A DNA stretch of 64,000 bases from Demequina maris (GTDB lineage Bacteria > Actinomycetota > Actinomycetes > Actinomycetales > Demequinaceae): assembly GCF_000971155.1 (NCBI RefSeq), contig NZ_BBLX01000006.1:124001-188000 (forward strand), read 5' to 3'. Below, piece after piece: positions 26,729 to 40,544 of the stretch (position 1 is its first letter; each line of letters begins with the position of its first letter). The notes beneath the pieces were generated by a model. That model was not told the origin of the DNA, did not search any database, and saw only the letters and a list, made by a program, of their open reading frames with translations. A program made the position numbers and the translations under genes.

Positions 26729-27814
26729 TCAGCTCGAGGCCGCTGTCCCTGGGGTCGCACCCGCGGATGCGGGCGTCTCACCCTTTCTCTTCCCTCGCCT
26801 TCTGGCGCGCCGGGACTGGGCCCAGGCGAGGAGGCTCGGCATGACCACGGACAGGATCAGCAGGGTGCCCGTGATCACGTTGATCACATCGGAGGTGACG
26901 CTGGCGAGGCGCAGCGCGCTCGCCATGGCGCCGATGAGCAGCGCGCCGGCGATCGGGCCGTGGAGCGCGCCGCGCCCTCCGAAGATGCTCACGCCGCCCA
27001 GCAGCACGGCAGCGACGACGCTCAGCTCGAGGCCGGTGGCGTTGTCGCCGCGCGCGCTTCCGTAGCGCAGCGTGTAGTAGATGCCGGCGAGCGCCGCGAC
27101 GGCGCCGCTCAGCACGAACAGGATGAACTTGGTCCGCTCGACGCGGACGCCCGAGAAGTGCGCCGCCTCCTTGGACTGGCCGATCGCGAAGATGCCGCGT
27201 CCGAACGGCGTGAAGTGCAGCAGCCATGCGAATACGATGGCGAGCACCACGATCAGGATGACGACGCTCGGGATGGGCGTGCCCGGGATCTTCGAGGTGG
27301 CCAGGTCGCGCCACGTCTCCGGGAAGTCCGTGATCGCGGTGGTGCCGAGCAGCCCGACCGCGAGGCCGCGGAACAGCGCGAGCGTGCCGATCGTGACCGC
27401 GAGCGAGGGCAGCCCCACCACCGTCACGAGGAAGCCGTTGATCGAGCCTGCGACGGCGCCCGCGACGATCGCGACGAGCGCCGCGACGGGGAACGGCAGG
27501 CCCGCCTGGTGCAGCGTGCCCGTGAGCACCGACGACAGGCCCACCACCGACGCCACCGACAGGTCGATCTCGCCCGTGACGATGATGAGCGTCATCGGGA
27601 GCGCGATCAGCAGGATCGCGGCGATGTCGAGGAACAGGTACGTGTAGGTGATCGGTGCGCCGAAGTTCTTCACCGTGAGGCTCGCGTAGGCGATCACGAG
27701 GGCGAGGGCGCCGACCACGGCCATCTCGCGGGTGAGCAGCACCCGCTTCCACAGCGGCCGCTGGAAGTCGCGGTAGGTCCGCTCGCTCGGCGGGGCAAGG
27801 GTTGCGCTAGCCAT
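26729..27814 (-). CDS. rhaQ: Rhamnose ABC importer permease 2
   Basis: 361 residues with about ten transmembrane helices. The CUT2 permease signature appears as IIVTGEIDLSVASVVGLSS and NGFLVTVVGLPSLAVTIGT, and a late VLLGGVSIFGGRGALHGP block is present. A basic C-terminal tail (RRARRRGKRKG) follows. It starts inside the end of the other permease (8-base overlap), indicating coupled translation. Confidence 0.88.
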   Translation of the reverse strand: MASATLAPPSERTYRDFQRPLWKRVLLTREMAVVGALALVIAYASLTVKNFGAPITYTYLFLDIAAILLIALPMTLIIVTGEIDLSVASVVGLSSVLTGTLHQAGLPFPVAALVAIVAGAVAGSINGFLVTVVGLPSLAVTIGTLALFRGLAVGLLGTTAITDFPETWRDLATSKIPGTPIPSVVILIVVLAIVFAWLLHFTPFGRGIFAIGQSKEAAHFSGVRVERTKFILFVLSGAVAALAGIYYTLRYGSARGDNATGLELSVVAAVLLGGVSIFGGRGALHGPIAGALLIGAMASALRLASVTSDVINVITGTLLILSVVMPSLLAWAQSRRARRRGKRKGETPASAGATPGTAASS

Positions 27815-28847
27815 GGGACTTCTCCCTCTCCTTCGCGAGCCTGCGTTCCTGTCGGGTGGCGGCGAACCGGTCGAGGACGATCGCGCCGATGATGAGCGCG
27901 CCGACCACCGCCTGCTGCCAGAAGTCCTGGACGCCCAGCACGGGCAGCGCGCGGTTGATGGTCATGAGCAGGAACGCGCCGATCGCGGCGCCGAAGACCG
28001 TGCCGCTGCCGCCGAAGATGGCGACACCGCCGATCACGGCGGCACCGACGGCCTGCAGCTCGTAGCCGGATCCCACCTGGGAGTTCACCGTGCCGTAGCG
28101 CGCGGCGTAGAGGACGCCGGCGAGCCCGGCGAGCGCTCCCGACACCATGAACGCGGTGATGAGGCGGCGCCGCACCTGGAGGCCGTAGAGGATCGCGGCG
28201 TCGGGGTCCGAGCCCATCGCGTAGTACTCGCGACCGGCCCGCTGGGTGGACATGTACCAGCCCGCCGCGACCAGCACCACGAGCGCGATGATCGTGATGA
28301 CCGGGATCCTCCACACGGCGCTCGTGCCGAGGTCGAGGAAGCCGCGGGGCATGTCCGAGGCGTTGATGCGGTCGGAGCCGGTCCACATGACGTTGATGCC
28401 GCGGAACGCGTACAGGGTTCCGAGCGTGACCACGAGGCTCGGCACCTTCGCGTAGGCCACCACGAGTCCGTTGATGAGGCCCAGCAGGCCGCCGAACACG
28501 AGCCCGATGAGGAACACCGCGGGCCACGGGATCCACGGCATCTCGACGAAGACCGTGCCGACCAGGTACGCGGTGAGCCCCATCACCGATCCGACCGAGA
28601 GGTCGACGTTGCGGGTGATGATGACCATCGCCTGGCCGACGGCGAGGAGCATCAGGAGCGACGGCGTCAGGAGCAGGTCCCGGAAGCCGTCGTTCGAGAA
28701 CAGGAAGTTCGGGTTCTTGATGGTGGTCGCGACCACCACGAGCACGAAGGCGGCGAGCACGCCCACCTCGCGCTGCTTGAGCAGGTCGAGGGCGCGCGAG
28801 CCGAGCCCGCGCTGGGCGACGCTGTCGCGGACGTCGGTGAGGGTCAT
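27807..28847 (-). CDS. rhaP: Rhamnose ABC importer permease 1
   Basis: 346 residues, a CUT2 permease with VIITRNVDLSVGSVMGLTA, VAYAKVPSLVVTLGTLYAFRG truncated here to its core, and IGGVAIFGGSGTVFGAA. About ten transmembrane helices. Its ATG overlaps the ATPase stop by 4 bases (28844-28847). Together with the permease at 26729 it forms the rhamnose channel. Confidence 0.88.
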   Translation of the reverse strand: MTLTDVRDSVAQRGLGSRALDLLKQREVGVLAAFVLVVVATTIKNPNFLFSNDGFRDLLLTPSLLMLLAVGQAMVIITRNVDLSVGSVMGLTAYLVGTVFVEMPWIPWPAVFLIGLVFGGLLGLINGLVVAYAKVPSLVVTLGTLYAFRGINVMWTGSDRINASDMPRGFLDLGTSAVWRIPVITIIALVVLVAAGWYMSTQRAGREYYAMGSDPDAAILYGLQVRRRLITAFMVSGALAGLAGVLYAARYGTVNSQVGSGYELQAVGAAVIGGVAIFGGSGTVFGAAIGAFLLMTINRALPVLGVQDFWQQAVVGALIIGAIVLDRFAATRQERRLAKEREKSHG

Positions 28848-30385
28848 CGCGTCTCCTCCAGGCTGTGCGTCGCGGCGTGCATGACCGCCTCCGGCGTGGC
28901 CTCCTCGCGGGTGAGGTTCGCGGTGATCCGCCCCTCGTGGACCACGAGCACGCGGTCCGCCATGCCGAGCACCTCGGGCAGCTCGGAGGAGATCATGAGG
29001 ATGGCGAGGCCCTGGCCGGCGAGATCGGAGAGCAGGCGGTGCACCTCGGACTTGGTGCCGACGTCGATGCCTCGGGTCGGCTCGTCGACGATGAGCACGC
29101 TGGGCTCCGTGGCGAGCCACTTCGCGATGACGACCTTCTGCTGGTTGCCGCCGGAGAGCGTGCCGGCGAGCGTGTCGAGCGAGGGTGCTCGCACCTCGAA
29201 GCGCGCCGCCCATTCGCGCGCCGAGGCGTTCTCGGCGGCGTTGGTGAGCACGCCGAACCGGGTGAGGCGGTCGCGGATCGTGAGGGTGACGTTCCGGGCG
29301 ATCCCCGAGTCGAGCACGGCGCCCTGGCGCCGGCGGTCCTCGGGGATGAGGGCGAGGCCGCGGCTCATGGCCTTGGTCGGGTCGCCGCCGGGGAGGGGCT
29401 TGCCCGCGACCGTCACGGTGCCCGAGTCGTACGGGTCGACGCCGAAGGCCGCGCGGGCGATCTCCGAGCGGCCAGCGCCCACGAGTCCCGCAAGCGCGAC
29501 GATCTCGCCCGCGCGCACCTCGAAGCTGACGTCGTGGAACACGCCCGTGCGGGTGAGGCCCTCGACCTTGAGCAGCACGTCGCCCACGGGCGCGACCACC
29601 TTGGGGAACAGGTCCGTCACGTCGCGGCCGACCATCTGGCGCACGAGCTGGTCCACCGTGGTGTCGGCGATGGCGCTGGTCGAGATGTACTCGCCGTCGC
29701 GCATGACCGTGACGGTGTCGCACAGGTCGAAGACCTCGTCGAAGCGGTGGGAGATGAAGAGGATCGCGCGCCCCTCGTCGCGCAGCGCCCGGGCGACGCT
29801 GAAGAGCCGCTCGACCTCGACGCCCGAGAGGGCGGCGGTCGGCTCGTCCATGACGAGCACCTTCGCGTCGAGCGACATCGCCTTGGCGATCTCGACGAGC
29901 TGCTGGTCGGCGATCGACAGGCCGCGCGTGGGGCGGTCGGGGTCGACATGCACGCCCAGCTGCTCGAAGAGCGACACCACCTCGTCGCGCATCGCCTTCT
30001 TGTCGATGCGCCCGAACGACATCGTGGGCTGGCGGCCCATGAACACGTTCTCGGTGACGCTCAGGTCCGGGAAGAGCGTGGGCTCCTGGTAGATCACCGC
30101 GATTCCGGCGTCCTTGGACTCGGCTGTCGTGGTGAAGTCGACGGGCTCGCCGAGGTACTCGAACGTGCCCGCGTCTCGTTGGTACAGGCCCGCGATGATC
30201 TTCACCAGCGTCGACTTGCCGGCACCGTTCTCGCCGATGAGGGCGTGGACGGAGCCGGGCCTCAGGGTGAGGCTGCCGGAACGGAGGGCGACCACGGGGC
30301 CGAAGGACTTGGCCACGCCGTCGAGCACGAGCGTGGGTGCCGCCGGGGATGCGGCTGGGGGAGCTGTCATCGTCGACCTATCCAC
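28844..30385 (-). CDS. rhaT: Rhamnose ABC importer, tandem ATPase
   Basis: 513 residues with two ABC domains. Domain 1 has Walker A GENGAGKST, Walker B VLVMDEP and an atypical signature (LSIADQQ). Domain 2 has signature LSGGNQQ and Walker B VLIVDEP, but its Walker A region is degenerate (GLVGAGRSE), as usual in CUT2 ATPases. It powers the two permeases downstream. A GTG at 30385 with GAGGA upstream is the likely start; ATG 30370 is an alternative. The promoter at 30407-30458 carries an ACGA-centred LacI operator. Confidence 0.9.
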   Translation of the reverse strand: MDRSTMTAPPAASPAAPTLVLDGVAKSFGPVVALRSGSLTLRPGSVHALIGENGAGKSTLVKIIAGLYQRDAGTFEYLGEPVDFTTTAESKDAGIAVIYQEPTLFPDLSVTENVFMGRQPTMSFGRIDKKAMRDEVVSLFEQLGVHVDPDRPTRGLSIADQQLVEIAKAMSLDAKVLVMDEPTAALSGVEVERLFSVARALRDEGRAILFISHRFDEVFDLCDTVTVMRDGEYISTSAIADTTVDQLVRQMVGRDVTDLFPKVVAPVGDVLLKVEGLTRTGVFHDVSFEVRAGEIVALAGLVGAGRSEIARAAFGVDPYDSGTVTVAGKPLPGGDPTKAMSRGLALIPEDRRRQGAVLDSGIARNVTLTIRDRLTRFGVLTNAAENASAREWAARFEVRAPSLDTLAGTLSGGNQQKVVIAKWLATEPSVLIVDEPTRGIDVGTKSEVHRLLSDLAGQGLAILMISSELPEVLGMADRVLVVHEGRITANLTREEATPEAVMHAATHSLEETR

Positions 30386-30406
30386 TCATCCTCGTCTCAC
30401 ACCAGC

Positions 30407-30458
30407 GTGAAACGATTCATATATGTGCGAACCTAATGTCCGGTTCGGGAGGTGTCAA
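30407..30458 (-). promoter_or_regulatory. Promoter and LacI operator of the rhamnose ABC operon
   Basis: On the minus strand TTGACA (30458-30453), a 17-base spacer and TAGGTT (30435-30430). GTGAAACGATTCAT (30407-30420) follows, matching the operator consensus at 12 of 14 bases. Confidence 0.85.
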
Positions 30459-30613
30459 CGAAGTCGTGTCTCGAACGCGTAACGATGTGCCGAAACGTGA
30501 CCTCCGTCCCTGGTGCGCCGGCGCGGACTCCCACCCAACGCGCCGCGCTTCCCGTCGTGCTTGGAAGGTTTCAGTATCCTGACGGGACCATCCGTATCGA
30601 CGAGGAGGCCGGA

Positions 30614-31627
30614 ATGTCGGTGAGCGTGCGCGAGGTCGCCGCTCGGGCGGGCGTGTCCGTGGGCACCGTGTCGAACGTGCTCAATCGGCCCGACCAGGTC
30701 AAGGCCGAGACGGTCGAGCGTGTCCGTGCCGCCATCGAGGAGCTCGGATATGTGCCGAACGCCGCCGCGCGCCAGCTGCGCGCCGGCCGTAGCCAGAGCC
30801 TCGCGCTGCTGGTGCTCGATGTCGGCAACCCGTTCTTCACGGACGTCGCGCGAGGCGCCGAGGCGCGCGCGGCGAAGGAGGGCCTCACCGTCCTGCTCGC
30901 CAACTCCGACGAGTCGTCGGAGCGCGAGGCCAGCCACCTCGACGTCTTCGAGCGTCAGCGTGTGAGCGGCATCCTCGTCTCCCCGGTCGAGGGCGACTTC
31001 ACGCGGCTCGAGGAGATCCGCAAGCACGGCATCCCCGTGGTGCTGGTCGACCGGGGCGCCGACCAGGCCCGGTTCGCGTCCGTATCCGTCGATGACGTCG
31101 CCGGCGGCGCGCTCGCCGCGCGCCACCTGCTCGAGCAGGGGAGGAGGCGGCTGGCGTTCGTGGGCGGCCCCCTGCGCATCGGCCAGGTGGCCGACCGCTT
31201 CGCGGGCGCCTCGGCCGCGGTCGCGGAGCACGGATCGGCCACCCTGCAGCTCTTCGGCACCGACGAGATGTCGCTCGACGAGGGGCGTCGCGTGGGCGAG
31301 GCGCTGCGCCCGCTCATCAGGGACACAGGCATCGACGGCATCGTCGCGGCCAACGACCTGCTCGCGATCGGGGTCGAGCGCGCGCTGCTGTTCGGCCCGG
31401 ACCCGATCCGTGTCCCCGACGAGGTCGCGCTGGTCGGCTACGACGACATCTCGTTCGCCGCATCGGCCGTCGTGCCGATCTCCTCGATCCGGCAGCCTCG
31501 CGAGCTGATCGGCGCCACCGCGGTCGAGCTGCTGCTCGAGGAGGCCTCGCGCGCCAAGGGCGACGCGCCGCGGCACGTGGTCTACGCGCCCGAGCTCGTG
31601 GTGCGGGAGTCGAGCGTCTCGGGCTAG
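30614..31627 (+). CDS. LacI-family repressor 2 (rhamnose regulon candidate)
   Basis: 337 residues. The helix-turn-helix is at residues 4-24 (VREVAARAGVSVGTVSNVLN), followed by an effector domain with LLVLDVGNPFFTDVARGAEA and VGYDDISFAASAV. It is divergent from the rhamnose ABC operon, and the ACGA-centred operator at 30407 lies between them. That position makes it the likely regulator of the ACGA-type sites (8249, 25523, 30407), with rhamnose or a pathway intermediate as effector. AGGAGG at 30603-30608 fixes the start; a longer frame from 30452 has no support. Its end overlaps the convergent LacI gene by 4 bases. Confidence 0.9.
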   Translation: MSVSVREVAARAGVSVGTVSNVLNRPDQVKAETVERVRAAIEELGYVPNAAARQLRAGRSQSLALLVLDVGNPFFTDVARGAEARAAKEGLTVLLANSDESSEREASHLDVFERQRVSGILVSPVEGDFTRLEEIRKHGIPVVLVDRGADQARFASVSVDDVAGGALAARHLLEQGRRRLAFVGGPLRIGQVADRFAGASAAVAEHGSATLQLFGTDEMSLDEGRRVGEALRPLIRDTGIDGIVAANDLLAIGVERALLFGPDPIRVPDEVALVGYDDISFAASAVVPISSIRQPRELIGATAVELLLEEASRAKGDAPRHVVYAPELVVRESSVSG

Positions 31628-32619
31628 GCCGCCGGGCCGGTCGAGCCGCGCACGATGAGCCGCGGCTCGAGCGTGACCTCCGCCACCTCGCGGTCGCCGT
31701 CGATCCGTGCGCGGAGCAGCCGCATCGCCTCGCGTCCCATCGCCTCGCGCGGCTGCTCGACGGTGGTGAGCGCGGGGCGCATCAGCCGGCCGAACTCCGC
31801 GTTGTCGTAGCCCACCACGCTCAGGTCTCCGGGCACGTCGAAGCCCCGCTCGAGGGCGTCGGAGAGGGCCGTCGTCGCGATCCGGTCGTTGCCGGCGAAG
31901 CACGCGGTCGGGCCCCCGGGGCGGCCTACGAGATCGAGGAGCCGTGCGGTGCCCTCGGCCGCGTCGATGACGACGGGGTCGAGGCCGGCGTCGCGCATGG
32001 TCTCCTCGAAGCTGGAGCGGCGCGCCGTGGCGGCCGCGCGGCGGGATGAGGCGATGTGGGTGATCCGCCGGTGGCCGATGTCGAGCAGGTGGGCGACGGC
32101 GGCCTGCGCGCCATGCTCGTCGTTGTTGCGGACCACGCTGACGCGCCGCGGCGGCGCGAACGGCCGTCCGACCATCACGACCGGCCGGCGGGCCGCCGCG
32201 CGGTCGAGGGTCTCGGCGTCGAGCATGGCGGAGACGACCACGACGCCGTCGACGCCGAGGTCGAGGATCTCGTCGAGGCGGCGCTCGAGCACCTCCGCCG
32301 AGCCACGGCCGTGGCCGATGATCGTGCCGAGCCCCGTCGCCTCGGCGTCCGCCTCGATGCCGGCTGCGACGTCCGCGAAGTAGGGGTTCGCGAGGTCGCT
32401 CACCAGCATGCCCACCATCTGCGTGCGGCCGCGCGCAAGCCCGCGTGCCAGGGCGTTCGAGTGGTAGCCGAGCTCGGTCGCGACGTCGAGGATGCGCGTG
32501 CGGGTCGCGTCGGACACGCCTGCGTCCCCCCGGATCGCGAGCGACACGAGCGACTTCGAGACGCCCGCGGCGCGGGCGACGTCGACGATGGTCGGCGCGG
32601 GTCGTGGGGGCGAGGTCAC
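31624..32619 (-). CDS. LacI-family repressor 3
   Basis: 331 residues. The helix-turn-helix TIVDVARAAGVSKSLVSLAI differs clearly from the two rhamnose-region repressors, so a different operator is expected. The effector domain has GMLVSDLANPYFADVAAGIE and VVGYDNAEFGRL. It is convergent with and overlaps the previous LacI gene. The GTG start at 32619 is preceded by TAGAAC with 6 bases between, and a GTTCT-agc-AGAAC palindrome covers that element, which points to autorepression. Its targets are not evident. Confidence 0.88.
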   Translation of the reverse strand: MTSPPRPAPTIVDVARAAGVSKSLVSLAIRGDAGVSDATRTRILDVATELGYHSNALARGLARGRTQMVGMLVSDLANPYFADVAAGIEADAEATGLGTIIGHGRGSAEVLERRLDEILDLGVDGVVVVSAMLDAETLDRAAARRPVVMVGRPFAPPRRVSVVRNNDEHGAQAAVAHLLDIGHRRITHIASSRRAAATARRSSFEETMRDAGLDPVVIDAAEGTARLLDLVGRPGGPTACFAGNDRIATTALSDALERGFDVPGDLSVVGYDNAEFGRLMRPALTTVEQPREAMGREAMRLLRARIDGDREVAEVTLEPRLIVRGSTGPAA

Positions 32620-32625
32620 CCTGCA

Positions 32626-32638
32626 GTTCTAGCAGAAC
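32626..32638 (-). promoter_or_regulatory. Palindrome over the -10 of LacI repressor 3
   Basis: GTTCT (32626-32630) and AGAAC (32634-32638) with a 3-base centre. The minus-strand TAGAAC inside it (32631-32626) is 6 bases before the GTG, so it may be both a leaderless -10 and an operator. Confidence 0.35.
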
Positions 32639-32698
32639 GTCAGGTGAACGACGGGCGAACTTACGGGAACGGATCGGTGCCCGCCTGGAACGCTCCAG

Positions 32699-32704
32699 TA
32701 GCGT
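32699..32704 (+). promoter_or_regulatory. -10 element of a probable leaderless promoter (tandem HAD gene)
   Basis: TAGCGT lies 7 bases before the GTG at 32712. Confidence 0.4.
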
Positions 32705-32711
32705 CCAGGAC

Positions 32712-34349
32712 GTGACCTCATCCACCCTCTCCACCCCGGCCCCCAGGACCGTCGCCTCGGCCGCCCGCATGCCCCGGCCCCGCGCCCTGCTGCTCGACTT
32801 CGGCGGGGTGGTGATCACCACCGCGAAGCGCGCGCACGGCCTCGACGACGCCGCCGCGCACGTTGCCGCGATGCTCGAGCGCGGGCTCGTCCCGGTGCCC
32901 GTCGACGAGGTGCGCGCCAACCTCTCCGCGGGCCTCACCGCCCTCACGCACTGGAAGCACGCCGCGAGCCGCCGCCGTGAGCCCCGCGAGCTGACCCATC
33001 GTGAGATCGTGGGCGACTTCCTCGCCGCCGAGCTGCCCGAGCGCGCCCGGGCGCTCCTCATCGCGGAGGCCTCGGAGCTGCTCGACGCACTCCAGACGCT
33101 CATCACCGACCACCGCCTGCGCCCCGGCATCCGCCGCCTGCTCCAGGTCGCGCGCAGCCGCGCGATCCCGGTGGGCATCGTCTCCAACGCGCACTCGGGC
33201 CGCAGCCACCGCCGCATCCTCGCGGAGCTCGGGGTGATCGACTCCTTCGCGGTGCAGGTGTACTCCGACGAGGTCGGGATGCGGAAGCCCAACCCCCGCA
33301 TCCTCGAGCTCGCGGCCGCCGCGACGGGCGTCGCGCCGGCCGACTGCTGGTACGTGGGAGACACCCTCGACCGCGATGTGGTCGCCGCGCGGCGCGCCGG
33401 CATCGGAGCCGCGATCGTCACCCGCGACAAGCACACCGACCATCCGCCGTTCGCGGTGGCGCAGCGGCCCGACGCGGTGTTCGACACTCCCGCCGAGCTG
33501 GCCGACGCCTTCGAGGCCGCCCTCGCCGCACGTGCGGACGATGCGGGAGCGACGGCCGCCGCATCGTCCCGCGGGGACGCGCCGCGCAGGGGCGCCCTGC
33601 TGATCGACCACGGCGGTGTGATCTCAGCCTCGCACCCCGACGTCGACGCGCTGCTGTCCCTCGGGGACCACGTCGCGCGGCTGCTGTCGACCGCGGAGGC
33701 GCCCCTCACGGCGGACGCGGCCGTGGCGATGATCCGGGGCGCGCGCGAGCGCCGGGCGGAGCGCAAGGACGGCTCGCTCGCGGAGACGACGCCCTTCGAG
33801 TTCTGGGTCGAGTGCTTCGGTGCCGACCTCGACGACCGCGCTCGGGCCATCCTCACCGCCGAGGCCGTCGACCTCATGCACCGCTACGGCCGTGCGAAGA
33901 GCCGCCGCACCCTGCGCGCGGGCGTCGCCGAGGCGATGCAGCTCGCGCGGGCGATGGGCATGCCGATCGTGGTCGTCTCCAACACCCTGTCCGGACGAGC
34001 GGTGCGCGACGCGTGCGCGGCGCACGGGCTCGCGACGCTCATCGGCGCATACGTCTGCTCCGACGAGCACGGCATGCGGAAGCCGCACGCCGGGATCGTC
34101 CAGGAGGCGCTCCGGATAGCCGACGCGGACCCCGCGTCCTCCTGGTTCTACGGCGACAAGCCCCACGCTGACGCCGAGGCCGCGCTCGCGGCCGGCATCG
34201 GCCGCCGCGTCATGGTGCGCGGCGGGGCCGTCGTCGACGACGTGCTCGACTCCGCGTTGGCCGCCGGCATGGCGACCGACGTGGTGGACGACGCGAACGG
34301 CCTGCTCGCGCTCCTGCGACAGGCCAGCCCGACCCCTGCAGTCTCCTGA
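32712..34349 (+). CDS. Tandem HAD-domain hydrolase (two fused phosphatase domains)
   Basis: 545 residues made of two complete HAD-like domains of ~265 residues. Domain 1 has nucleophile Asp29 in LLLDFGGVVIT, IVSNAHSGRS (motif II), GMRKPNPRIL (motif III Lys) and WYVGDTLDRDV (motif IV). Domain 2 repeats them: Asp299 in LLIDHGGVIS, VVSNTLSGRA, GMRKPHAGIV and WFYGDKPHADA. In both, the usual second Asp of motif I is replaced by Gly, so phosphatase chemistry may be modified. The two halves are diverged, so the fusion is not recent. It ends 29 bases before the ECF S-component gene, suggesting it dephosphorylates or processes the imported compound. The start could also be ATG 32769. Confidence 0.8.
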   Translation: MTSSTLSTPAPRTVASAARMPRPRALLLDFGGVVITTAKRAHGLDDAAAHVAAMLERGLVPVPVDEVRANLSAGLTALTHWKHAASRRREPRELTHREIVGDFLAAELPERARALLIAEASELLDALQTLITDHRLRPGIRRLLQVARSRAIPVGIVSNAHSGRSHRRILAELGVIDSFAVQVYSDEVGMRKPNPRILELAAAATGVAPADCWYVGDTLDRDVVAARRAGIGAAIVTRDKHTDHPPFAVAQRPDAVFDTPAELADAFEAALAARADDAGATAAASSRGDAPRRGALLIDHGGVISASHPDVDALLSLGDHVARLLSTAEAPLTADAAVAMIRGARERRAERKDGSLAETTPFEFWVECFGADLDDRARAILTAEAVDLMHRYGRAKSRRTLRAGVAEAMQLARAMGMPIVVVSNTLSGRAVRDACAAHGLATLIGAYVCSDEHGMRKPHAGIVQEALRIADADPASSWFYGDKPHADAEAALAAGIGRRVMVRGGAVVDDVLDSALAAGMATDVVDDANGLLALLRQASPTPAVS

Positions 34350-34378
34350 CACCACCCGTTCCGATGGAGGAGCTCCTC

Positions 34379-35287
34379 ATGTCCCAGACCACCGCCCCCG
34401 ACGAGCGCACCGGCAGGCTGCGCGGCACCGTCGCCGGCCTGCCGCGCGACCTCACCGGCTCGCAGAAGCTCATGGTCTTCGTGCTCTCGATGGCGCTCTC
34501 GGGCGTCGCGAACCTCGTGCTCGAGATCATCCCCGACGTCACGATCGGCCCGGTCGACGTCTCCGTCAGCTACTTCGTCTTCGTGCCGCTCGCGCTCGTC
34601 GCGCTTCTCAACCCGTTCTGGGCCGCGCTCGGCGCCCCGATCGGCGAGGTGATCTTCGTCGACCTGCTCATGGGCGACTTCTCCGGCCTCGCCGAGATCG
34701 AGGGCATCATCCAGATGTTCCTCGCGCTGTACATCGCGGGCTCGCTCGTGCGGAACCCGCGCAACCGGATGCAGATCGCCATCGCCGCCGTCACCGTCGT
34801 GGTGATCGACAAGGCGCTGTCCGCGATCGTCGACCTGTCCAAGGTGTGGATCGGCGTCGAGGACGCCGAGTTCGTCGAGGGCCTGCCCGAGTCGATCCTG
34901 CTCCTCGAGGGCATCGGCTACGCCGTGGACATCCTCATGAGCGGTGTGCTGTTCGGCGTGATCCCCGCGATCTGGCTGATCCCGGCTTTGCACGGCCGCA
35001 TCGAGCCGCTGCTGGGCATGCGTCCGCGCGTGCCGGGCGAGCCCATCCAGGGCTCGGCGCCCCGGAACGGCCTGTTCGTCGGCGTCGCGGTGGCGCTCAG
35101 CGTCGCGTCCTTCTTCTTCGCCTTCCTCGAGGCCTGGGACATCGAGCTAGGCGTGTTCGAGCCCGAGTGGCTCGACACGTACGGTCCCGGCTTCATCTGG
35201 GTCGGCGTCGGCGCGGCGGCGATCGCCTTCCTCGTGGGCGTGGCGCTGGCGCGCGCGGCCCGCGGCAAGTCCGACGACGAGAACTGA
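34379..35287 (+). CDS. ECF importer substrate-binding (S) membrane component, unknown substrate
   Basis: 302 residues with about six to seven transmembrane helices (QKLMVFVLSMALSGVANLVL, FVFVPLALVALLNPFWAALG). It precedes a fused A-A' ATPase and an EcfT-like gene, so it takes the position of the S-component. It is longer than typical S-components (about 180-220 residues) and has an acidic external loop (EFVEGLPESILLLEGIGY). ATG 34379 was chosen because GGAGGAG lies at 34366-34372; an ATG at 34364 overlaps that site. No vitamin-binding signature is recognisable. A strong hairpin (35293-35326) separates it from the ATPase gene. Confidence 0.7.
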   Translation: MSQTTAPDERTGRLRGTVAGLPRDLTGSQKLMVFVLSMALSGVANLVLEIIPDVTIGPVDVSVSYFVFVPLALVALLNPFWAALGAPIGEVIFVDLLMGDFSGLAEIEGIIQMFLALYIAGSLVRNPRNRMQIAIAAVTVVVIDKALSAIVDLSKVWIGVEDAEFVEGLPESILLLEGIGYAVDILMSGVLFGVIPAIWLIPALHGRIEPLLGMRPRVPGEPIQGSAPRNGLFVGVAVALSVASFFFAFLEAWDIELGVFEPEWLDTYGPGFIWVGVGAAAIAFLVGVALARAARGKSDDEN

Positions 35288-35292
35288 ACAAC

Positions 35293-35326
35293 GGTCCGGG
35301 CAGGGGCGCACGCCCCGGCCCGGACC
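35293..35326 (+). terminator. Strong hairpin between S-component and ATPase genes
   Basis: GGTCCGGGC (35293-35301) pairs with 35318-35326, and inside it GGGGC pairs with GCCCC. It lies within the ECF operon without a T-run, so it could attenuate transcription or stabilise the upstream message. Confidence 0.55.
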
Positions 35327-35353
35327 CACCTCATCGAGAAAGCAGCACCCCGC

Positions 35354-37072
35354 ATGACCGCCATCATCGAGCTCGATCGGCTCAGCTTCCGGTATCCGGG
35401 AGCCGACCGGGACACCCTGCGCAACGTCTCCCTGACCATCGAGGAGGGCGACTTCGTCGCCGTGATCGGCGGCAACGGCTCCGGCAAGACGACGCTGTGC
35501 AAGACCTTCAACGGGCTCGTCCCGCACTACTGGGCCGGCGAGTTCGCGGGGGAGGCCCGCGTCGCGGGCGTCGACACCTACGAGTCGACCGTGGCCGAGC
35601 TGTCCGGCCTCGTCGGCTACGTCTACCAGGACTTCCAGAACCAGCTGGTGCGCCCGCGCGTGCGCGACGAGGTCGAGTTCGGACCCGTGAACTTCGGCAT
35701 GGAGGACTTCGCCGCCCGCGGCGAGGAGGCCATGCGGACCCTCGGGGTCGACCACCTCGCCGACCGCTTCGTATGGCAGCTCTCGGGTGGCCAGGCCCAC
35801 CTCACCGCGCTCGCCTCGGTGCTGTCGATGCGCCCGCGGATCATCGTGGTCGACGAGCCCGTCGCCGAGGTCGACCCCGCCGGCGCTCACGCCCTGTACG
35901 AGCGCCTCACGCAGCTCAACCGCGAGCTCGGCATCACCGTCGTGGTGATCGAGCACCACGCGCAGTTCATCACGCAGTACGCCAAGTCGGTGGTCCTCAT
36001 GGATGACGGCGCGCCCGTCTGGCACCTGCCCGCCGCCGAGGCCGCCGCCCGTGCCGACGAGCTCGCCGCCCACGGCATCCCTGCGCCGCAGATCATCGAC
36101 GCGTGCGCCGCGGCCGGCATCGAGGGCGCGCCGCGCACCGTCGCCGAGGCCGCCACGCTGCTACGCGAGGCCGGCGTCCGGCCCACCGGCGCATCGTCCG
36201 CCGGGACGGATGACGCAGGGGAGGGCGAGGCAGCCGAGCAGGCCCGCCCGGTGGTCACCGCATCGTCGCTCTCGCACGGCTACCGGACGGTCGCGGGCGA
36301 CCTGATGCCGGTGCTGCACGACGTCGACCTCACGGTGCGCGCGGGGGACCGCATCGCGCTTGTGGGCGGCAACGGCGCCGGCAAGTCCACGCTGATGCGC
36401 CTGCTCGGCGGCCTCCAGGTGCCGCGCGAGGGCAGCATCGTGCTCGACGGGGTCGACACCCGCAAGGCCTCGAGCTCGCGGCTCGCCGACCACGCGGCGT
36501 ATCTGTTCCAGCGGCCCGAGCAGATGTTCCTCAAGGACTCCGTCCGCGCGGACGTCCGCCTGCACCCCGCCGGCCGCGGTCGCGAGGACGTCGACGCGCT
36601 GGTCGACCACGTCCTCGACCGCGTGCGGCTGACCCCGCTCGCCGACCGTGACGGACGTACCCTCTCGGGCGGTCAGCAGCGGCGCGCGACCCTCGCGATC
36701 GGCCTCGCGATGAGCCCCGCGCTGATGCTGGCGGACGAACCCACCGCGAGCCTCGACGTCGCCAGCCGCGACAGCGTCATCGCGATGCTCGACGAGCTCT
36801 CCGGCACCATCGCCGCGGCCGTGGTCGCGACCCATGACATGCATCTGGTCGCTGAGTGGGCGACCCGCGTCATCGTCCTCGAACGGGGGCGCATCGTCGC
36901 CGACCTGCCGCCCCGCGAGCTCTTCGCGGACGACGCGCTGCTCGCCCAGGCGCGGCTGGTGCCGCCGCAGATCGTCGCCCTCGGGCGGGAGCTGGGCGTG
37001 GAACCGCTGCCGCTGTCGGTGGCCGACTGGCGCGACGCGGTCGCGCTGTCCGGGACGGAGGCGCTCGCATGA
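35354..37072 (+). CDS. ECF importer fused A-A' ATPase
   Basis: 572 residues with two ABC domains. Domain 1 has Walker A GGNGSGKTT (39-47), Q-loop YQDFQNQLV, signature QLSGGQAH and Walker B IIVVDEP. Domain 2 has Walker A GGNGAGKST (about 338-346), Q-loop FQRPEQMF, signature LSGGQQRR and Walker B LMLADEP. The 'FQ.P..Q' Q-loops are typical of ECF (CbiO/EcfA) ATPases. The domains are joined by a ~60-residue Ala-rich linker. It overlaps the EcfT gene by 4 bases (ATGA at 37069). Confidence 0.9.
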   Translation: MTAIIELDRLSFRYPGADRDTLRNVSLTIEEGDFVAVIGGNGSGKTTLCKTFNGLVPHYWAGEFAGEARVAGVDTYESTVAELSGLVGYVYQDFQNQLVRPRVRDEVEFGPVNFGMEDFAARGEEAMRTLGVDHLADRFVWQLSGGQAHLTALASVLSMRPRIIVVDEPVAEVDPAGAHALYERLTQLNRELGITVVVIEHHAQFITQYAKSVVLMDDGAPVWHLPAAEAAARADELAAHGIPAPQIIDACAAAGIEGAPRTVAEAATLLREAGVRPTGASSAGTDDAGEGEAAEQARPVVTASSLSHGYRTVAGDLMPVLHDVDLTVRAGDRIALVGGNGAGKSTLMRLLGGLQVPREGSIVLDGVDTRKASSSRLADHAAYLFQRPEQMFLKDSVRADVRLHPAGRGREDVDALVDHVLDRVRLTPLADRDGRTLSGGQQRRATLAIGLAMSPALMLADEPTASLDVASRDSVIAMLDELSGTIAAAVVATHDMHLVAEWATRVIVLERGRIVADLPPRELFADDALLAQARLVPPQIVALGRELGVEPLPLSVADWRDAVALSGTEALA

Positions 37073-37875
37073 GCCGCAAGACCAGGGACGTGCTGTCCGT
37101 CGAGTGGGTCAAGCTCGAGCTCATCCGCACCGCCTACGCGACGCGCGGCGGGCTGTTCGCCAAGATGGACGCCCGCATGGTGATCGGCTGGTACCTCATG
37201 CTTGCCGTCGCGCCGTGGCTGACCCACAACTTCACCACCATCCTCGCGCTGTTCGCGATCACGGCCGTGAGCGCGGCCCTCGCGCGGGTCGGTCCGCTGG
37301 TGCTCGGGCTGTTCCTCTTCGGCTTCCTCACCGACTTCCTCTACGCCTTCCTCGCCGCGTGGATGTTCGGCGGCGACGTCAACACCGCGATCGCGCTGAT
37401 CGAGATCAACCTCAAGCTCGCGACGGTGTCGCTGGCCTCCATCGCGGCCTTCGTGTCCCTCGACCCCGAGAAGCTCAGCACCGGTCTCCTCGCGCTGGGG
37501 GCGCCCGAGCTGCTGGCCTTCGGCGTGAGCTACGGCTACCGGATGATGCCCATCCTGTTCGAGGAGTTCGGCATCGTGTTCACCGGGCTGCGGCTGCGCT
37601 CGGCTCCCGGTGCGCGCGGGTTCCTCGGGATGCGGGCGCTGTGGCGCTGGGGGACGTACGCCGTGCAGGCGTTCTATCCGATCTTCCTCAACACCGCGAA
37701 GAGCGTGCGCACCACCGTGGAGTCGCTCGAGACGCGCGGCTTCACCGCCAACCAGGGGAGGGGCCTGCGGATCGCGCGGCTGAGCATCGGCGGTCTCGAC
37801 GTGGCCGTCGTCGCGGTGACGGTGGCGGCGGTGGCGGTCGCGTTCGGGCTAGGCGCCAGGTGGCCCCTGGGGTGA
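37069..37875 (+). CDS. ECF importer transmembrane (T) component
   Basis: 268 residues. Several hydrophobic helices are followed by a C-terminal cytoplasmic coupling region with TTVESLETRGF, equivalent to the conserved A-R-G coupling motif of EcfT. It links the ATPases to the S-component. It is translationally coupled to the ATPase gene. Confidence 0.82.
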   Translation: MSRKTRDVLSVEWVKLELIRTAYATRGGLFAKMDARMVIGWYLMLAVAPWLTHNFTTILALFAITAVSAALARVGPLVLGLFLFGFLTDFLYAFLAAWMFGGDVNTAIALIEINLKLATVSLASIAAFVSLDPEKLSTGLLALGAPELLAFGVSYGYRMMPILFEEFGIVFTGLRLRSAPGARGFLGMRALWRWGTYAVQAFYPIFLNTAKSVRTTVESLETRGFTANQGRGLRIARLSIGGLDVAVVAVTVAAVAVAFGLGARWPLG

Positions 37876-39354: not shown

Positions 39355-39440
39355 CGCGGAAGTGCCTACGCCGGGACGATGTGCGGAGGGCCCCGGATCG
39401 CGAGGCTGGAGGCACCAAGAAGAAAGAGGAGATGAACACC

Positions 39441-40544
39441 ATGTCCGCCCCCACCGCCCGCCGGGTGATCCCCGGGATCGTCACCCTTGGACTCGCCGCC
39501 GGCGTCGTCCTCGTCCCCAACGCCGCGTTCGCCGCCTGCAAGTCGGGCGACTCGCAGACCCGTCCTGCTGCCGCCTCTCAGGGCCAGGGCCACGGGCCGT
39601 CCGTCCCCGGCCCCTCGGCAGGCGTGACCACGCAGATCGCGATTCCCGCTCCCGACGAGACCGCCGTTGTCGTCGAGCCGGAGCTGCCGCGTCAGCTGAG
39701 CCCCGAGCTGCTGAACTTCATTCCCGAGTCGGAGAGGCCGGCCGTCGTCGTGCCGCCGCGCCTCGAGCAGGGCGCTCCTTCGTCGCAGCCGGTCGTCGCT
39801 GAGGAGACCGTGGTGCCGGAGAAGCTCGTGCAGGGCACACCCGAGCCGCAGCCCGCCGTCGCGGCCGAGGTGGAGCGTCAGGTCCGTCCGGAGCGTCTCG
39901 CGCTTCTCGGTTCTGTGCCCGAGCCGTTGCCGGTCGCCGCAACCGAGACCGCGGTGCCGCCGCGCCTTGAGCAGGGCACGCCCGAGCCGCTGCCGGTGGC
40001 TACGACCGAGACTGTGGTGCCGCCCCGTCTCGAGCAGGGCACGCCCGAGCCGGTCGTCGTGGCTGAGGTGGAGCGTCAGGTCCGTCCGGAGCGTCTCGCG
40101 CTTCTCGGTTCTGTGCCCGAGCCGCTGCCGGTCGCTGCAACCGCGACCGTGGTGCCGCCCCGTCTCGAGCAGGGCACGCCCGAGCCGCTCCCCGTCGTCG
40201 CCGAGGAGGCACTCGTCCCCCAGATCGCCGAGCAGGGCGTCCCGACGCCGCTGCCGGTCGAGACGCCGTCCGTCGTGGACCAGCAGATCCCCATCCCTGC
40301 GACCACGACGGCCGGTGCCACCGTCGTCGACACCGACGTCGACGACACCCTCGCCACGGACGAGGTCGCTGATGCGCCGCAGTCCGAGGCGGTCGCGGAG
40401 GGCGCCCGCCTGGCAGCGGACGCCCCCGCGACCACCCTGTCGCACACCGGTGTGGACGGCTCGACGCTCGCCCTGGGCGGTGCGGGCCTCGGCGCCATCC
40501 TCCTCGGTGGTGCGATGCTCGCGATCCGTCGGGTGCGCGGCTGA
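39441..40544 (+). CDS. Repeat-rich surface protein with LSHTG sorting-like signal
   Basis: 367 residues. A signal peptide ends near VPNAAFA. The mature part is almost wholly Pro/Glu/Val repeats built from PPRLEQGTPEPLPV, including two 66-residue units starting VERQVRPERLALLGSVPEPLPV in truncated form here. The C-terminus reads LSHTG, a transmembrane helix and RRVRG, the layout of a sortase substrate with LSHTG in place of LPxTG. It is likely an extended wall-anchored stalk. ATG 39441 was chosen because GAGGAG (39426-39431) sits 9 bases upstream; the ATG at 39432 touches it. A perfect hairpin terminator follows. No sortase gene is in the window. Confidence 0.75.
   Translation: MSAPTARRVIPGIVTLGLAAGVVLVPNAAFAACKSGDSQTRPAAASQGQGHGPSVPGPSAGVTTQIAIPAPDETAVVVEPELPRQLSPELLNFIPESERPAVVVPPRLEQGAPSSQPVVAEETVVPEKLVQGTPEPQPAVAAEVERQVRPERLALLGSVPEPLPVAATETAVPPRLEQGTPEPLPVATTETVVPPRLEQGTPEPVVVAEVERQVRPERLALLGSVPEPLPVAATATVVPPRLEQGTPEPLPVVAEEALVPQIAEQGVPTPLPVETPSVVDQQIPIPATTTAGATVVDTDVDDTLATDEVADAPQSEAVAEGARLAADAPATTLSHTGVDGSTLALGGAGLGAILLGGAMLAIRRVRG
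39867..40188 (+). repeat. 198-bp direct repeat inside the surface-protein gene
   Basis: The segment starting GAGGTGGAGCGTCAGGTCCG at 39867 recurs at 40065 with nearly identical bases for over 100 nucleotides. Synonymous positions are also conserved, which suggests recent duplication or gene conversion. Confidence 0.85.

Follow-up and report, generated by a model that had tools for sequence, protein, structure and literature searches.

In the window, that is, the whole 64,000-nucleotide stretch of the Demequina genome analyzed here, four open reading frames follow each other head to tail between positions 32712 and 37875. They encode a predicted double HAD phosphatase (HAD-HAD), an ECF S-component (S), a fused ATPase (A-A′) and a transmembrane component (T). 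Both the frames and their compact order agree with the first-pass annotation, which had been made from the sequence alone (table 1). For S, an alternative start at the upstream ATG at 34364 would give a product of 307 aa.

Two other features of the window lie close to this cassette. A sugar ABC importer with its own divergent LacI gene (30452-31627) adjoins it at 27807-31627 (ATPase 28844-30385, permease beyond), and the same importer is found beside the cassette in one close relative (L003). At 39381-40544, a surface protein with long internal repeats is predicted (a 198-base unit repeated 2 times and a 63-base unit repeated 2.2 times).

Table 1. Genes and regulatory features of the cassette, in positions of the window
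Feature	Position	Strand	Details
Divergent LacI-family repressor	31624..32619	-	Pfam LacI 3.8e-14, Peripla_BP_3 7.5e-34
PHO box, three GTTC units with 11-nt spacing	32632..32660	-	GTTCGCC, GTTCACC, GTTCTGC; 1-mismatch site at 32643-32660
LacI operator CTGGAACGCTCCAG	32685..32698	.	Near-perfect palindrome, at the same place in other genera
Probable -10 hexamer TAGCGT	32699..32704	+	7 nt 5′ of the GTG start of HAD-HAD
Double HAD-IA phosphatase (predicted)	32712..34349	+	GTG start, 545 aa; Pfam Hydrolase 2.5e-36
ECF S-component	34379..35287	+	302 aa; ATG start preceded by GGAGGAG
Fused EcfA-EcfA′ ATPase	35354..37072	+	572 aa, two ABC domains
EcfT transmembrane component	37069..37875	+	Pfam CbiQ; start overlaps the stop of A

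The fused ATPase exceeds the cut-offs of both EcfA models (TIGR04521, 338.4 bits with a cut-off of 330; TIGR04520, 337.4 bits with a cut-off of 315), and T passes the Pfam CbiQ model PF02361 with 35.7 bits (cut-off 25). In the structure model of S, which has a pLDDT of only 73, the core (approximately residues 21-227) aligns to ECF S-components. The top 17 rows are all S-components with Z 9.1-12.6; FolT is the best match (Z 12.6, VIA-align), chains of PanT, ThiT, RibU, and BioY are among the other top rows, and the first row after these 17 drops to Z 6.7. Genes for S, A, and T are encoded together at all 71 loci used. In detail, the cassette has every feature of a group I (dedicated) ECF-type ABC importer that could be tested: the S fold, two EcfA ATPases, EcfT, and co-encoding.

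The S sequences of relatives are 94-96% identical to that of the window. No ECF S family was found among the Pfam matches of 17 S members, up to E 10, or in NCBIfam for the window S and two distant relatives, and no solved structure in the PDB matched S by sequence. Judged by its modeled fold, S is a new sequence family with the ECF S-component architecture. The absence of a vitamin-type signature, already noticed in the first pass, is thus borne out, and S was not assigned to any known vitamin family: it matched none of the curated S-component families, the operon has no riboswitch either in the window or at 8 other loci, and the neighborhood survey showed no conserved vitamin gene near the cassette. 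The length of about 300 residues, likewise described as greater than usual, is due to two C-terminal helices (approximately residues 231-300) that follow the six-helix core.

Near its presumed outer face, S has residues that do not vary between bacteria and archaea; most of these are acidic (E49, E90, E108, D152, E164, and E177), and one is a Lys (K155). With the topology taken from the fold, they map largely to loops and to the ends of helices, the ligand-binding regions of S-components. Such a conserved acidic face is unusual for an anion site and constitutes the chief objection to a plain phosphate anion as cargo. Together with K155, it is compatible with an amine or with hydroxyls; speculatively, the acidic face could be reconciled with phosphate if the cargo were an aminosugar phosphate or a metal-bound phosphate.

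Two more distant S sequences were met in the survey. An orphan homolog of 37% identity in a Bacilli genome (L154:8699-9580) has no adjoining A, T, or phosphatase gene, and has lost several otherwise invariant residues, so that it may be in decay or have taken on another role. An S-like stretch (L155:7400-8050, 35 bits) in a further genome from the order of Demequina lies with a T gene and a fused ATPase (32%) of its own, and possibly represents a sister S family.

The two HAD domains of the first gene (approximately residues 23-272 and 293-540) are related to each other with 32% sequence identity (E 8e-24). Each retains the nucleophile Asp (D29 and D299), the Ser of motif II, the Lys of motif III, and the GD...D of motif IV, and these catalytic motifs are invariant in 28-29 of the 29 orthologs. 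In the structure model (pLDDT 87), two complete domains with helical caps are formed. Both domains have Gly two positions after the nucleophile (DFGG and DHGG), as do those of nearly all orthologs; alignment and model therefore agree with the earlier description of two complete but diverged domains with Gly at the second motif-I position. The usual Asp+2 acid/base of HAD enzymes is consequently absent from both domains, which counts against the organophosphate-importer reading proposed below. As the protein carries the HAD-IA phosphatase motifs (Asp, Ser/Thr, Lys, GD..D), it is predicted to be a phosphatase.

By sequence, HAD-HAD matches structures of YihX, an enzyme which also has Gly two residues after its nucleophile. 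The HAD-IA fold is common to HAD-HAD and the YihX-type alpha-glucose-1-phosphatase (PMC4251788), but HAD-HAD differs in consisting of two fused domains and in being encoded within an ECF operon.

A search through 84,980 species genomes provided 30 loci, to which whole-genome searches added further loci from Actinomycetes, Bacilli, and Coriobacteriia, and plasmid records one from Streptomyces, one from Niallia, and three from haloarchaea. Orthologs of S-A-T are thus distributed in Actinomycetes, Bacilli, Coriobacteriia, and haloarchaea. A plasmid search with A alone returned the same five plasmids, that is, S, A, and T travel together, and none of the viral contigs searched carried the cassette. 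The cassette is accessory: it occurs in 41/396 genomes sampled in the order of Demequina (one of them, G1502, by a weak 35-bit match), and in 22/399 sampled Bacilli and 10/199 sampled Coriobacteriia, the labels of these two classes being partly deduced from the loci at the center of each search (Sporolactobacillus and Collinsella).

A phosphatase gene is located close by in 71/71 loci (about 67 distinct genomes, as approximately four were counted twice where two collections overlap): HAD-HAD in 39, PHP in 29, ComB in two, and IMPase in one. These assignments were backed by Pfam checks and annotated records, and the orphan S of L154 was left out of the 71. The order of divergent LacI, HAD-HAD, S, A-A′, and T is kept in 27/27 actinobacterial loci, one of which ends inside S at a contig end, and this is far beyond chance. 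In the larger actinomycete set, the neighborhood survey proposed with the first-pass annotation showed that HAD-HAD is conserved at 39/39 loci, with the operon order and LacI in 38/39. The single exception (L168, 7250-12644) has a convergent HAD-HAD gene and no LacI, and is the only such actinomycete locus seen. Beyond genus level, no other widely shared neighbors such as kinases or hydrolases were found.

Outside Actinomycetes, the partner changes. The places of LacI and HAD-HAD are taken in Bacilli and Coriobacteriia by an RpiR/SIS regulator and a PHP-domain enzyme. The metal ligands of the PHP enzyme are invariant (H8/H10, E43/H44, E80, H88, H135, and D192/H194); among solved structures, the Bacilli protein is most closely related to PsfC. 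Halobacterium and Halostagnicola have a ComB-type phosphatase as partner, accompanied in Halobacterium by a HisJ-like PHP, and in Halopiger the partners are inositol-monophosphatase-family genes. The HAD-HAD, PHP, and haloarchaeal forms fall in separate clades of the S+A+T tree. Since loci are related within clades, the exchanges of phosphatase amount to three or four events and not 71.

The presence of unrelated phosphatase folds beside orthologous S-A-T genes is an indication that dephosphorylation is a shared need, and from these comparisons the fold-swapped recruitment would be hard to explain unless dephosphorylation were part of the function. The repeated exchange beside one importer is in this sense a natural experiment which indicates the class of the cargo. 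The proposal that the linked phosphatases process a phosphorylated compound before or after import is accordingly supported. Handling of a phosphorylated compound is strengthened by the PHP, ComB, and IMPase replacements outside Actinomycetes and by the PHO boxes described below; processing before import is unlikely, as no signal-peptide-like N-terminus was seen in HAD-HAD or PHP when their N-termini were read by eye.

Three specific cargos were considered from the neighbors and rejected. For histidinol phosphate, models of histidinol phosphatases give the highest scores for the Halobacterium PHP and the Halopiger IMPases, though short of the cut-offs, and are not the best match of the Bacilli PHP or of HAD-HAD. 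For a cobamide-related compound, one haloarchaeal neighbor resembles CbiR (70 bits, cut-off 105) and is not conserved. For a methionine-related compound, met genes and a SAM riboswitch lie beside the Sporolactobacillus loci and are conserved nowhere else; the riboswitch (L027:7242-7356) is located 5′ of the methionine genes adjoining the cassette.

LacI and RpiR/SIS regulators usually respond to sugars or sugar phosphates, and the occurrence of both families points to a sugar- or polyol-like cargo. LacI is found at 27/27 HAD-type loci of the smaller set. The LacI-HAD-HAD intergenic region carries the palindrome CTGGAACGYTCCAG in most actinomycete loci, in up to three copies, and the subgroup of Brachybacterium and Brevibacterium has different palindromes and more diverged LacI proteins. 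The operator of the window, CTGGAACGCTCCAG, has its sole exact copy in the genome at this locus. LacI therefore looks like a local regulator, and the search for further genes of its regulon gave no clue to the substrate. In some genera (L022, L023, and L058), the 5′ end of the HAD-HAD coding sequence contains a second operator-like copy, a hint that repression may involve looping or a roadblock.

In the same intergenic regions of Actinomycetes, GTTCACC units are arranged in an 11-nt register. The PHO motif of Streptomyces coelicolor is GTTCACC in 11-nt direct repeats (PMC4415409). At the matching place in most HAD-type promoters there is a TA[AG]CGT hexamer, and the PHO units stand at fixed distances from it. 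Counted from this -10 hexamer for units scoring at least 6/7, GTTCACC-like units lie 38 nt upstream in 25 loci, 27 nt in seven, 49 nt in six, 16 nt in five, and 42 nt in two, with no other distance across 14-61 nt.

In the 2.97-Mb genome of the window, the pattern GTTCACCNNNNGTTCACC is matched exactly only upstream of pstS; five further sites carry one mismatch and include this promoter, the phoU/histidine kinase intergene, and a DUF4956 gene. The box of the cassette is thus among the six best of the genome, along with those of pstS and phoU. A reversed control pattern gave 3 hits versus 38 for the PHO pattern, and within the window 4 hits were observed versus 0.25 expected. The Demequina loci carry their PHO box on the opposite strand, directed toward the LacI gene, which makes activation of the Demequina operon less sure. 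The DUF4956 gene (L186:1565-2170) shares one of the six best boxes, and this suggests that it may also be a member of the Pho regulon.

Repeats of TTHACA spaced by 11 nt are the form of the PhoP site in Bacillus subtilis. In Bacilli promoters, 11-nt-spaced TTHACA pairs score 11 or 12/12 in 18/19 loci versus 7/261 control upstreams, which are other upstreams of the same loci, intra-operon regions included, in a comparison that takes no account of relatedness; 11 nt is the best among spacings of 7-19. In Coriobacteriia promoters, no PHO box was detected. Based on its promoter boxes, the cassette is a candidate member of the Pho regulon in Actinomycetes and Bacilli, where it would probably be induced by phosphate starvation.

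The reading preferred here, with a probability of roughly 0.58, is that the cassette encodes an ECF importer dedicated to a small organophosphate, most likely sugar- or polyol-like, which would be used mainly as a phosphate source and cleaved by a cytoplasmic phosphatase. Sequence comparison provides the ECF parts, the conserved phosphatase partner of unrelated folds, the conserved operator, and the PHO-type boxes. We infer expression under phosphate starvation, a phosphorylated and sugar-like cargo, and the direction of the reaction. When phosphate runs short, a PhoP-type regulator would bind the PHO box, and LacI (RpiR in Bacilli and Coriobacteriia) would add control by the substrate or its product, with expression when phosphate is scarce and the cassette's own substrate is present. 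S would then capture the organophosphate outside the cell, A-A′ and T would power its import, and the cytoplasmic partner phosphatase would free inorganic phosphate and the dephosphorylated product.

The chances are about even, leaning slightly in favor, that this is the first ECF family devoted to phosphorus nutrition, characterized by import of an intact organophosphate, PhoP-type control in Gram-positives, occurrence in haloarchaea, and independent recruitment of phosphatases (HAD, PHP, ComB, and IMPase). If true, ECF transporters would extend past vitamins and metals to phosphate nutrition.

It is rather doubtful that the cargo is a non-phosphorylated sugar-, polyol-, or amine-like compound, with the phosphatase acting on an intracellular phospho-derivative (detoxification or salvage) and the PHO box serving phosphate sparing. 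The Glu/Asp-rich outer face of S would suit cationic ligands or sugars, the phosphatases seem to be cytoplasmic, and LacI and RpiR regulators fit sugars. However, a kinase would be needed to produce the phospho-form and none is conserved beside the cassette, and Pho-type sites in two phyla better fit phosphate supply.

Salvage of a phosphorylated vitamin or cofactor (e.g., thiamine phosphate, pyridoxal phosphate, or phosphopantetheine), dephosphorylated after import, is improbable. ECF S-components typically bind vitamins and the core of S aligns with FolT, RibU, ThiT, PanT, and BioY, but S has no vitamin-family match, riboswitches are absent from the window and the 8 loci, and the regulators are of the LacI/RpiR and PhoP types and not those of vitamins. 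Membrane remodeling in phosphate starvation, with import of a phosphorus-free headgroup and a phosphatase degrading phospholipid-derived phosphates, would account for the Pho-type boxes and the phosphatase partner; it is very improbable, as no lipid-synthesis gene is conserved nearby and unrelated phosphatase families would all need one lipid role. That the phosphatase is a chance or hitch-hiking neighbor and the PHO-like repeats something other than PhoP sites is hardly credible: HAD proteins are abundant in every genome and neighborhoods are inherited within a clade, but a phosphatase accompanies every locus, from unrelated families in separate clades, and the repeats show 11-nt phasing with pstS and phoU as positive controls.

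Compared with known systems, the organophosphate importer proposed here shares with the ECF vitamin transporters (FolT, RibU, ThiT, PanT, and BioY) the S core fold (Z 9-12.6), EcfA-type ATPases, and an EcfT with CbiQ. It differs from them in having no common sequence family, two extra C-terminal helices, a dedicated phosphatase, and control by LacI/RpiR and PhoP-type sites in place of a riboswitch. The first-pass annotation knew of no characterized system of this composition, and none was found in the open-license literature searched, where no ECF transporter was linked to phosphate starvation, to RpiR/PHP, or to LacI/HAD.

In its proposed role, the cassette resembles the Ugp glycerol-3-phosphate ABC importer of Escherichia coli and Corynebacterium glutamicum, which likewise imports an organophosphate under Pho control and has an enzyme gene, UgpQ/GlpQ, in its cluster (PMC4415409, PMC7866108). 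The second control of E. coli Ugp by carbon status is similar to the dual control proposed here (PMC4415409, PMC7866108). Ugp consists of a solute-binding protein and ordinary ABC permeases, whereas S and T are ECF components, and no genes for a Ugp-type solute-binding protein or for UgpA/E permeases are found in the cassette. By analogy, the cassette would work like Ugp, yet it is no member of the Ugp family.

The antiporters UhpT and GlpT import intact sugar phosphates or glycerol phosphate, as the cassette is proposed to do, but they are MFS antiporters and not ATP-driven. Streptomyces is without a uhp system, and S. coelicolor and C. glutamicum are without glpT (PMC7866108). In the 2021 review of actinobacterial phosphate transport, no evidence of intact sugar-phosphate import in Streptomyces was reported, glycerol-3-phosphate uptake was left open, the use of sugar phosphates was described as PhoP-dependent, and ECF systems are absent from the text (PMC7866108). 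For the lineages that carry it, approximately a tenth of the sampled genomes of its order and one Streptomyces plasmid, the cassette is a concrete candidate for organophosphate uptake.
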